64,000 nt of DNA from Crocinitomicaceae bacterium. GTDB taxonomy: Bacteria; Bacteroidota; Bacteroidia; Flavobacteriales_D; Crocinitomicaceae. Location of the stretch: contig JAJTCM010000006.1 of NCBI GenBank assembly GCA_021325675.1, positions 1 through 64,000 of the forward strand, written 5' to 3'. The position numbers and the translations under genes were made by a program. The notes beneath the pieces are model-generated. The model ran no database searches, was not told the DNA's origin, and saw nothing but the letters and a program-made list of their open reading frames with translations. Positions 52,511 to 59,376 of the stretch are shown one piece after another; within the stretch, counting starts at the first letter, position 1, and the number at the start of each line of letters is the position of its first letter.

Positions 52511-52798
52511 TTATATTTCAAGTTTATGGATCCTGTTAATTGGCAATACTGTATTCTGCTTCAGCACGATAGCTGAGTCGGTAACGGCCCAAATGGTTGT
52601 TTCTACTCTTTTTTTCCCGGCGTTATCCGAAAAATAAATGGTCACTTTCTGATGCTCGAGGTTTCCCAAAGCAATTGCCCGGTGAATTTCCTCGCTGCGT
52701 ATTTTCATCTCCTTGTCGCTTTTTAAAATCTCTTCTTTCGGAAAGTGAAGGCTTGAAATTTCTTCCTTATTGATAAGTTTAAATGTGTTATCGGACAT
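52511..52798 (-). CDS. Small conserved Bacteroidota protein, 95 residues
   Basis: Features KSDKEMKIRSEEIHRAIALG, then GNLEHQKVTIYFSD, then VETTIWAVTDSAIVLKQN and PINRIHKLEI: a helix followed by a small beta sheet, much like a short conserved hypothetical I know from this phylum. No function is known. Shares a promoter at 52819-52848 with the acidic-tail gene. Confidence 0.8.
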   Translation of the reverse strand: MSDNTFKLINKEEISSLHFPKEEILKSDKEMKIRSEEIHRAIALGNLEHQKVTIYFSDNAGKKRVETTIWAVTDSAIVLKQNTVLPINRIHKLEI

Positions 52799-52818
52799 GC
52801 AGATGAGTTTTTTAATGG

Positions 52819-52848
52819 CAAAAATAGATTAAAACATCAATTGTCAAA
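52819..52848 (-). promoter_or_regulatory. Promoter of the small two-gene operon
   Basis: Minus strand TTTG (52848-52845), 18-base spacer, TATTTTTG (52826-52819), exact at both boxes, 20 bases before the ATG at 52798. Confidence 0.65.
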
Positions 52849-52867
52849 AAAAAAACAAATTTTTTTT

Positions 52868-52901
52868 CAAAAAAAAAGACTTCCGATAAAAGAGAAGTCT
52901 T
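52868..52901 (-). terminator. Terminator downstream of the LytTR regulator
   Basis: GAAGTCTT (52894-52901) and AAGACTTC (52876-52883) pair over 8 bases around a 10-base loop, followed leftward by a long T run on the minus strand. Confidence 0.65.
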
Positions 52902-52950
52902 GACCAATAGTAGAAGGGATGAAAAATGTAACCCGGATATAAAAAAAATA

Positions 52951-53065
52951 AAGTCAGGTTAATTATCAAATTTATGCAGATACAAAATGCTAAAACTCCC
53001 AAAATTTGGTGAAAAACTAAAACTAAAAAACTACTCGTATCTAAATTTGTAAGTTAACCTGACTT
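52951..53065. repeat. 115-base hairpin of three nested stems
   Basis: Perfect inverted arms: AAGTCAGGTTAA (52951-52962)/TTAACCTGACTT (53054-53065), CAAATTTA (52967-52974)/TAAATTTG (53042-53049) and GATAC (52979-52983)/GTATC (53037-53041), 25 pairs in all, with a 53-base A-rich loop. Leftward it is followed by TTTATTTTTTTT. The whole gap 52799-53204 otherwise holds only a promoter and a terminator. It could be a small RNA, a 3' UTR structure or a MITE-like element. Confidence 0.65.
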
Positions 53066-56430: not shown

Positions 56431-59376
56431 ATGGATTACAATCATTTGGATATTGAACGTAAATGGCGCAAACATTGGTCTGAAAACCAAACATTTAAAT
56501 CAGAAGACAATTCCGAAAAAGAGAAATACTATGTCCTTGACATGTTTCCTTACCCATCCGGTGCAGGCTTACACGTAGGCCACCCGCTCGGGTATATTGC
56601 TTCGGATATTTATGCACGCTACAAACGTTTACAGGGTTTTAATGTGCTCCACCCGATGGGCTACGATTCTTTCGGGCTTCCGGCCGAGCAATATGCTATT
56701 CAAACCGGGCAGCACCCTGAAAAAACGACCAAAGAAAACATTGCACGCTACCGCACGCAGCTGGATAAAATCGGCTTTTCCTTTGACTGGTCGCGCGAGG
56801 TGCGCACTTCGGACCCTTCTTATTATAAATGGACACAATGGATTTTCATCCGCCTGTTTGACGCCTGGTACAACCCGGTTAAAGACAAGGCTGAAGACAT
56901 TCAAACGCTTATCGATATTTTCCAAACCCAGGGCTTTAGCGGCAACGCAGGCGATGCACTCACCGGTGGAATTGAGCACAATATCCGGCCTTTCAGCGCT
57001 TCCGAATGGAAAGAATTTGAAGAAAGCAAACAACGTGAGATCCTGATGCATTTCCGCCTGGCTTACCTGGATAATACCTGGGTAAACTGGTGTCCTGCGC
57101 TGGGAACGGTGCTCGCCAACGACGAAGTGGTGAACGGGGTTTCCGAACGCGGCGGCCACCCGGTTGAACGCAAAAAAATGCAGCAGTGGAGCCTGCGCAT
57201 CACAGCTTATGCGGAACGCTTGCTCACCGGGCTCGACGGACTGGACTGGACGGAATCGATCAAAGACATGCAGCGCAACTGGATAGGGAAATCCAAGGGC
57301 TGTACGATCCGCTTCAAAACGGCTGACGACAAGCACAACATTGAAGTGTTTACCACACGTCCGGACACGATTTTCGGTGTAAGCTACGTAACGCTTGCGC
57401 CGGAACATGACCTCGTTTCCCAACTGACAACAGAAGAAAACAAAGAAAAAATCGAAGCCTACGTTGCCTACGCCAAAAACCGAAGCGAACGCGAACGCCA
57501 GGCCGATGTGAAAAATATTACAGGTGAATTTACAGGCGCTTACGTGATCCATCCGTTCACACAGCAGCAAATCCCGGTGTGGATCGGCGACTACGTCCTG
57601 GCGGGTTATGGAACAGGCGCCGTGATGGCCGTTCCTTCCCACGACGAGCGCGATTACCGTTTTGCAAAGCATTTTTCGCTGCCAAGACCGGTTGTCGTTG
57701 AAGCGCCGCAGGACTGGGATTTTGAACAGGAAGCCTGGGTTGAAAAATCCGGGAAAATCGTTAATTCTGACTTCCTGAACGGATTGGACGTAAAGCAAGC
57801 TGTTGTAAAAGCCATTGAGGAAATCGAAAAAGCCGGTATCGGTTTAGGAAAAGTAAATTACCGCCTGCGTGACGCCGTTTTCGGAAGACAGCGCTATTGG
57901 GGCGAGCCAATCCCGGTTTATTACAAAAACGGTCTTCCATACACTATGGATGAAGCCGATTTGCCGCTGAACCTGCCGGAAGTCGATAAATTTCTACCGA
58001 CTGAGGACGGTGAGCCGCCGCTGGCCCGGGCCAACAACTGGAAATACAAGGACGAATACGAATACGAAAAAACAACCATGCCGGGCTGGGCCGGAAGCTC
58101 CTGGTACTTCCTCCGTTACATGGACCCGCATAACATGCAGGAATTCGTCAGCAAAGCGAAAGTAGATTACTGGAAAAATGTCGATCTTTACATAGGAGGT
58201 TCCGAGCACGCAACCGGACACTTGCTGTATTCCCGCTTCTGGACGAAATTCCTCTTTGATCTCGGCTTTATCAGCTTTGATGAGCCTTTCCGGAAAATGA
58301 TCAACCAGGGAATGATTTTGGGGAGAAGCAGTATTGTATATAGACTATCATACTCCAAACAGGCTGAAGTTGAGTTTAAAGGAGAGATTCTAATTTCTTC
58401 AAAATTAAAATCTGTCGTTGATAAACACTTTGATATAAATCAAAAACTAACAAGTGAAGAAAATCGGCTATACGAATATGTTTTAAATGAAATTGAAAGA
58501 CTTAGAAATAAAATTCATATTGATTCCGTGAATCTAGCAACCTACGCTGTTCCATTAAACGTAGATATTTCTTTCGTTGATAACGACAAATTAAATATTG
58601 AAGATTTTAAAAACTGGCGTAACGAATTTAAAAATGCCGAGTTCATTTTTGAAGAAGACGGAACTTTTCTCTGTTCTTCCGAAGTCGAAAAAATGTCTAA
58701 ATCAAAATACAACGTGCAAACCCCGGACGAGCTGGTTGAAAAATTCGGCGCGGACACGCTGCGTATGTATGAAATGTTCCTCGGCCCGCTTGAGCAAAGC
58801 AAACCCTGGGACACGAAAGGCATCAACGGCGTTTCGAATTTCCTGCGTAAACTCTGGCGCTTGTTTAACTTCGACGAAAACGGCGCTGCGCAGCTGCATG
58901 GTGAAACGGCAAATGACAGCCTGAAAAGCCTGCATAAATGTATCCAGAAAGTGACCACTGATTTGAACCGTTTTTCATTCAACACGGGCGTTTCGAATTT
59001 CATGATCTGCGTCAACGAGCTCACGGAGCAAAAATGCAATAGCCGTGAAATCCTGGAGCAGTTGGTGATCCTCATGTCGCCTTACGCACCGCATATCTGC
59101 GAAGAATTGTGGACGAAGCTCGGCAACGCTCCCGGAACAGTTTCTTACGCCAAATTCCCGGAATTCAACCCGGATTACCTGGTGTCGGACGCTTTCTCCT
59201 ACCCTGTTTCTTTCAACGGAAAAGTGCGCTTCAACCTCGAATTCCCGACAAGCATGTCCCCGAAAGAAATCGAGGAGCTCGTTCTCGCTGACGAAAACAC
59301 GGCGAAATGGCTCGAAGGCAAAAGCCCGAAAAAAGTGATCGTTGTGCCGGGGCGGATTGTAAACGTGGTGGTTTAA
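56431..59376 (+). CDS. leuS: Leucyl-tRNA synthetase with AT-rich internal insertion
   Basis: 981 residues from ATG 56431. HIGH motif HVGH at 48-51, a CP1 editing domain (about 290-470), KMSKS at 754-758 and a C-terminal anticodon-binding region. Charges tRNA-Leu. Residues about 627-757 (58310-58700) are encoded by much more AT-rich DNA: I count 89 G+C in the 300 bases 58321-58620, against 31 of 60 just before (58201-58260) and 33 of 60 just after (58741-58800). The segment carries about 50 extra residues (about 640-700, helical and charged) compared with the Bacteroidota LeuRS I recall, and uses AGA and ATA codons rare in the flanks. The frame is unbroken. Confidence 0.95.
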   Translation: MDYNHLDIERKWRKHWSENQTFKSEDNSEKEKYYVLDMFPYPSGAGLHVGHPLGYIASDIYARYKRLQGFNVLHPMGYDSFGLPAEQYAIQTGQHPEKTTKENIARYRTQLDKIGFSFDWSREVRTSDPSYYKWTQWIFIRLFDAWYNPVKDKAEDIQTLIDIFQTQGFSGNAGDALTGGIEHNIRPFSASEWKEFEESKQREILMHFRLAYLDNTWVNWCPALGTVLANDEVVNGVSERGGHPVERKKMQQWSLRITAYAERLLTGLDGLDWTESIKDMQRNWIGKSKGCTIRFKTADDKHNIEVFTTRPDTIFGVSYVTLAPEHDLVSQLTTEENKEKIEAYVAYAKNRSERERQADVKNITGEFTGAYVIHPFTQQQIPVWIGDYVLAGYGTGAVMAVPSHDERDYRFAKHFSLPRPVVVEAPQDWDFEQEAWVEKSGKIVNSDFLNGLDVKQAVVKAIEEIEKAGIGLGKVNYRLRDAVFGRQRYWGEPIPVYYKNGLPYTMDEADLPLNLPEVDKFLPTEDGEPPLARANNWKYKDEYEYEKTTMPGWAGSSWYFLRYMDPHNMQEFVSKAKVDYWKNVDLYIGGSEHATGHLLYSRFWTKFLFDLGFISFDEPFRKMINQGMILGRSSIVYRLSYSKQAEVEFKGEILISSKLKSVVDKHFDINQKLTSEENRLYEYVLNEIERLRNKIHIDSVNLATYAVPLNVDISFVDNDKLNIEDFKNWRNEFKNAEFIFEEDGTFLCSSEVEKMSKSKYNVQTPDELVEKFGADTLRMYEMFLGPLEQSKPWDTKGINGVSNFLRKLWRLFNFDENGAAQLHGETANDSLKSLHKCIQKVTTDLNRFSFNTGVSNFMICVNELTEQKCNSREILEQLVILMSPYAPHICEELWTKLGNAPGTVSYAKFPEFNPDYLVSDAFSYPVSFNGKVRFNLEFPTSMSPKEIEELVLADENTAKWLEGKSPKKVIVVPGRIVNVVV

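Follow-up and report, generated by a model that had tools for sequence, protein, structure and literature searches.

The genes for aminoacyl-tRNA synthetases generally count as core genes that evolve slowly, and the enzymes themselves are targets of antibiotics. In bacterial leucyl-tRNA synthetase (LeuRS), according to the ECOD description (PMC6588880), a leucine-specific domain (LSD) lies N-terminal to the catalytic KMSKS motif, comes in two topologies, LS1 in E. coli and LS2 in T. thermophilus, is variable and sometimes absent, and has an unclear main function. An AT-rich tract found within the leuS gene of a Crocinitomicaceae bacterium (contig JAJTCM010000006.1, 64,000 nucleotides analysed, hereafter the window) resembles this domain in its site between the catalytic domain and KMSKS, and very probably represents a horizontally acquired LSD allele, the LSD behaving as an exchangeable cassette in the class Bacteroidia. 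The likeness extends to the variability, and occasional absence, that the same source (PMC6588880) describes between distant bacteria. Variation among LS1 and LS2 domains, however, separates distant orthologs, whereas in Bacteroidia even sister species differ in carrying unrelated versions, which reappear in other genera.

AgnB2 offers a parallel in broad terms. This LeuRS, which confers self-immunity on the producer of agrocin 84, is without an LSD (PMC5059758) and represents a LeuRS altered at this domain in a bacterium that has to withstand a LeuRS inhibitor. It is an additional synthetase encoded on a plasmid, whereas here the change sits in the sole full-length LeuRS match of the genome: no second LeuRS was found in the window's genome (G000), the five other matches being short and weak. 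Divergent modules that lie between conserved flanks and are moved by recombination are familiar from mosaic penicillin-binding proteins and from the target-recognition domains of type I restriction systems; the present case shares with these a divergent module between conserved flanks, presumably moved by recombination, and differs in that its host is a cytosolic, essential aminoacyl-tRNA synthetase. We know of no exchangeable module in such an enzyme, and a literature search, with most subscription papers outside its reach, returned no title or abstract opening that describes an exchanged LSD.

The product of the window's leuS scores 953.5 bits against TIGR00396, the curated LeuRS model (cut-off 548.4), which identifies it as a bacterial LeuRS, and its catalytic KMSKS motif is intact. 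The parts of the gene considered below, with G+C content at third codon positions given as GC3, are as follows.

56431-59373, forward strand: leuS, leucyl-tRNA synthetase, 981 amino acids, intact frame, matching TIGR00396.
58303-58341, forward strand: conserved left edge of the putatively exchanged region, NQGMILGRSSIVY, common to long and short forms.
58330-58707, forward strand: AT-rich tract, GC3 0.22, the putatively imported stretch, delimited by a two-break GC3 scan.
58342-58554, forward strand: hypervariable cassette core of the LSD, 71 codons, GC3 0.18, with relatives in L031 (alone among the 108 long loci introduced below) and L346.
58555-58689, forward strand: right-hand block of the segment, alignable and also AT-rich, nearest to L038 of another genus.
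58690-58704, forward strand: KMSKS catalytic motif, right edge of the putatively exchanged region.

The original prediction, of a sharply AT-rich segment at 58310-58700 inside leuS, is borne out. Specifically, 119 of these 391 bases are G or C (30.4%) against 50.1% in the remainder of the gene, and the poorest 300-nucleotide stretch of leuS, starting at 58332, holds 84 of 300, compared with the 89 of 300 counted originally. A two-break change-point scan placed the tract at residues 634-759, with a GC3 of 0.22 inside and 0.59 outside and a log-likelihood gain of 31.4; among 40 codon shuffles, for which a coarser step was used, the gain never exceeded 9.9. Moreover, no codon block of equal length in the 1,500 nucleotides upstream of NQGM falls below a GC3 of 0.49, the segment itself standing at 0.25, and the flanks within the gene have 0.61 against 0.18 in the core. 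So abrupt a shift in composition inside an intact gene marks leuS as a mosaic with sharp borders. Codon usage had also been described as switching to AGA and ATA. Of the 5 arginine codons in the tract 3 are AGA, against 3 of 41 in the rest of the gene, and this switch is real, while the ATA half of the claim is weak (1 of 10 isoleucine codons in the tract), and more striking than either is CTA, with 5 of 11 leucine codons inside and 1 of 65 outside. The estimate of about 50 extra residues was correct, as the segment from NQGM to KMSKS spans 134 amino acids in the window and 84 in L004, a short form of the same genus. The lowest G+C of the window, about 0.26-0.30, occurs at 52681-52980, outside the listed open reading frames of at least 150 amino acids.

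The tract lies between NQGMI-G-S and KMSKS. A Bacteroidota LeuRS profile aligns to T. thermophilus LeuRS to residue 583 and resumes at 637; the tract therefore occupies the LSD site and, judged by this position, is an LSD inserted just before KMSKS. AlphaFold2 predicts a folded strand-strand-helix-helix-strand domain, with a mean predicted local distance difference test (pLDDT) score of 78.9 for the full protein and 83.6 for the domain alone, in which the core, divided into seven ten-residue blocks, scores above 90 in four of them. The full model aligns to solved LeuRS chains at Z about 31; the predicted domain alone had no match at E 0.001 or at Z 2 among solved or viral structures, a result that does not show a new fold. 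Pfam searches with eight segments, the window's included, gave nothing above cut-off, and by this measure the window segment contains neither an intein nor a nuclease domain; its match to DUF3114 (E 0.0021, 18 bits, cut-off 25) was below the cut-off and taken as chance. The 196-amino-acid segment of locus L301 (genome G037) has a DUF559-like stretch (E 0.0078, 16.5 bits, below the Pfam cut-off of 20.6); DUF559 is a Vsr-like nuclease fold, whose usual catalytic pattern looks incomplete in this stretch.

Across the class the LSD takes several forms. Frequencies rest on an even draw of near-complete genomes, 73 of them at class level or nearer, in which 70 leuS loci were examined: in 30 (window included) the LSD is long and hypervariable, in 36 it is short and conserved, and in 4 it is intermediate. 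Sixty-eight of the 70 come from one reading, to which L272 and L273, both long, were added; among the three genomes left out, G366 is long, G393 is short by contiguous match and G326 was not looked at. Both long and short states are found within a single genus, the window's own included, where L004 and L005 are short and of two different kinds, and L002 and L003 are long and not detectably related to the window's segment. The condition named originally as a refutation, one insertion and composition common to all close relatives, is therefore contradicted by these four. Similarly, 68 of 72 genomes of genus g38 gave a match; 59 of them are short forms with 90-100% identity to the query, 6 are long and 3 are cut at contig ends. 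Elsewhere in the phylum, outside the class, 19 loci divide into 15 without an LSD and 4 with a short one; in the 15 (L350-L354, L357-L360 and L363-L368) a sequence of the type NQG[MT]ILGE is followed almost directly by KMSKS. A third short allele class, with KMSKR replacing KMSKS, was seen in seven loci (L005, L066, L074, L146, L294, L299 and L321, sharing the pattern GKSAIAY..REVRI..IDL..VDKMSKR), five of which belong, by group code, to the window's family and there to a different genus each. One genome, with about 3% contamination, has two leuS-like places, G621:C6 and G621:C8, both short and reflecting either a duplicate or contamination.

Comparisons between loci draw on a larger set, in which 297 were extracted and 8 removed as duplicates, leaving 289: 108 long, 178 short and 3 of 97-99 amino acids that were left out. 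This set is enriched for long forms through the inclusion of best scorers and deliberate picks. Two of the 108, L152 and L157, are short forms with a right-hand extension; the 108 serve for the GC3 slope, the nearest-neighbour counts and the flank tree, and the 106 without these two for correlations between flanks and core and for the counts of close pairs. Sampling was of one genome per species, placing within-species exchange outside its view, and many loci are from metagenome bins, with named isolates (Hymenobacter, Mucilaginibacter, Maribacter) showing the same pattern.

In the window as in the locus set, the relationships of the tract differ from those of its flanks, as in a mosaic gene. 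In its flanks the window has its closest relative in G002 of the same genus (78.6% amino acid identity). Its right-hand block is nearest to L038 of another genus (77%), the same-genus loci giving 58% (L002), 65% (L003 and L004) and 30% (L005), and its core is nearest to L346 of another family and L031 of another genus. Since the right-hand block, too, is nearest to another genus, a single imported stretch, from about NQGM to KMSKS, fits these data. The original interpretation had offered two readings, a recombined piece, perhaps escaping an inhibitor of the catalytic site, and a lineage-specific insertion; these affinities support the mosaic part of the first, no inhibitor having been found and no test aimed at one. 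The second is not supported, as the class shows long forms interspersed with short ones, a class-wide scale that lay beyond the view of that interpretation. Three further weak hits of the window core (E about 0.006) were set aside because they yielded no leuS segment.

Over the 106 long loci the two halves of the flanks agree with each other (r 0.87) and the core does not follow them (r 0.11 with the upstream half). Where two loci have flanks with a DNA identity of 90% or more, the pair is long-long in 6 cases, long-short in 15 and short-short in 25, and in none of the six long-long pairs is the core shared (BLAST, E 1e-3). In the closest sisters, L036 and L301, flanks are 95.3% identical over 2,169 nucleotides and the cores have no match at that threshold, reaching 35% amino acid identity in a forced alignment of 63 residues; within the window's genus, G003 (long) and G004 (short) have flanks 91.1% identical. 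Compared block by block, L235 and L174 agree at 28-30 of every 30 nucleotides up to the first 30 nucleotides of the segment and at 8-16 thereafter, and identity resumes about 150 nucleotides before the end of KMSKS. For each of the 108 long loci the locus closest in the flanks was taken; it is a short form in 37 cases and a long one with an unrelated core in 56.

Related cores, conversely, are found far apart: in Maribacter (L072) and in L248 and L253 of group g30, which we read as Flavobacterium-like, in L003 of the window's genus and L229 of another family, and, for the window's own type, in L031 and L346. In L240 and L247 synonymous divergence (dS) is 0.15 in the core against 0.71 in the flanks, and a core dS so far below that of the flanks indicates that this cassette probably moved recently. 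LeuRS searches of viral, phage and plasmid collections returned complete or fragmentary LeuRS genes in 4 viral loci, 56 phage records and 112 plasmid records; only the viral segments L329 and L330 were read, and neither was followed as a donor. In the former (L329:2291-7016, IMGVR_UViG_3300008885_000007), flanks have a G+C of 0.63 and the segment 0.34, the largest drop seen (-0.29); this leuS stands directly before an integrase-like open reading frame on a contig filed as viral and looks like a host leuS, perhaps with a prophage integrated beside it.

The composition of long cassettes follows that of the host gene only loosely. The slope of cassette GC3 on flank GC3 is 0.35 for long forms (n=108), against 1.00 for short forms (n=178), whose core is about 21 codons, and four long Hymenobacter loci combine flanks of 0.62-0.65 G+C with segments of 0.39-0.45. 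We read AT-richness as the look of a cassette from a common Bacteroidia pool inside a GC-richer host, the window being such a case. The ratio of nonsynonymous to synonymous substitution (dN/dS) ranges from 0.06 to 0.68 in the cores (15 of 16 pairs, the remaining pair having no usable dS) and from 0.03 to 0.09 in the flanks (12 of 16 pairs). As core values lie below 1, the cassettes look, on this sequence measure, like used domains under weaker or shifted constraint.

The explanation we propose is that the conserved flanks NQGMI-G-S and KMSKS let homologous recombination, the presumed mechanism, swap just the intervening part of leuS, such that close species carry short, or mutually unrelated long, LSDs in otherwise nearly identical genes. 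Turnover would outpace the amelioration of base composition, and cassettes would retain the AT-rich make-up of a shared pool. Several observations weigh against this explanation or narrow it. The nearest cores to that of the window are only 35-40% identical to it and no donor was identified, and in a class-wide search with this core G1028 was the one genome out of 394 others that clearly carried it as well. For 15 of the 108 long loci the locus closest in the flanks does carry a related core, and the long or short state needs at least 67 changes on the flank tree, against 76-97 in 200 label shuffles; some inheritance of the state therefore remains. Four long loci (L272, L273, L167 and L049) are not AT-rich relative to their flanks, and short segments also lie slightly below theirs in GC3 (mean -0.085, long forms -0.168). 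Outside the phylum, the segment of E. coli is not variable: 5374 of 5426 genomes gave a match, and every match reached an identity of 95% or more. Finally, pairwise dN/dS, with dS saturated in many pairs, gave no sign of positive selection in 15 of 16 pairs, and neither an antagonist nor a linked gene was found, no test having been aimed at either.

Two rival accounts may be taken first. An LSD under relaxed constraint might tolerate insertions and drift fast toward an AT-rich mutational state in each lineage without any import. Such an account would suit the variability or absence of the LSD across bacteria (PMC6588880), its absence from 15 of 19 loci in other classes of the phylum, and core dN/dS values well above those of the flanks. 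It does not accommodate the recurrence of a single cassette type in distant flanks, the conservation of the short forms at 90-100% in 59 genomes of one genus, or the finding that GC3 tracks the host in short cores and not in long ones, and it is already strained by the low core dS of L240 and L247; we regard it as improbable. Less credible still, and very improbable in our estimation, is a selfish in-frame element of the intein or homing type inserted in the LSD. The DUF559-like stretch of L301 (E 0.0078, below the curated cut-off) is the observation in its favour, set against the window segment and six others with no Pfam match above cut-off, core dN/dS below 1, as in used domains, and an FVS-type strand and right-hand block common to long and short forms.

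The remaining alternatives concern the driver and are compatible with exchanged cassettes, so that the confidences attached to them do not sum to one. Exchange could be neutral, the whole of leuS recombining and the variable domain alone making it visible. The borders do lie in conserved sequence, where recombination is easy, and no selecting agent is known; nevertheless, the agreement between flank halves (r 0.87) implies that distant exchange is not spread across the gene, and no comparable internal block was found in three other class I synthetases, IleRS, ValRS and MetRS, in four genomes of the window's genus. Neutral exchange appears rather unlikely. Cassettes might instead follow differences in tRNA-Leu, near which the LSD lies, but sister species with 95%-identical flanks have wholly different cassettes, and tRNA-Leu would have to change at an equal pace, which leaves such co-adaptation a distinctly poor candidate. 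Alternatively, the antagonist evaded by a change of cassette might be a kinase, or an enzyme of another sort, that docks on the LSD and modifies the KMSKS loop. HipA-family kinases act on other synthetases, the cassette stands immediately before KMSKS, and the third allele class carries KMSKR in its place in all seven loci; on the other hand, we know of no enzyme that modifies the KMSKS loop of LeuRS and the literature search found no related paper; we regard the proposal as improbable.

Within the exchanged-cassette explanation, selection is inferred because the discordance is confined to the LSD beside the KMSKS loop of an essential gene. A possible driver, put forward tentatively, is an agent that recognises the face of LeuRS beside this loop, such as a toxin, a phage protein or a natural inhibitor; a new cassette would alter or shield that surface while tRNA charging continued. 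The LSD might then mark the battle line of an arms race, or of a system of kin discrimination, that has gone unrecognised and in which bacteria escape by importing a cassette from a shared AT-rich pool, a suggestion we offer with the same reserve. That the LSD is replaced between sister species, with the rest of leuS unmoved, may point to an agent acting on LeuRS in a very common bacterial group. The natural set of cassettes would serve as a tool for finding this agent and bears on what the LSD is for. Should the arms-race suggestion prove true, an essential enzyme of translation would carry something like an exchangeable serotype.
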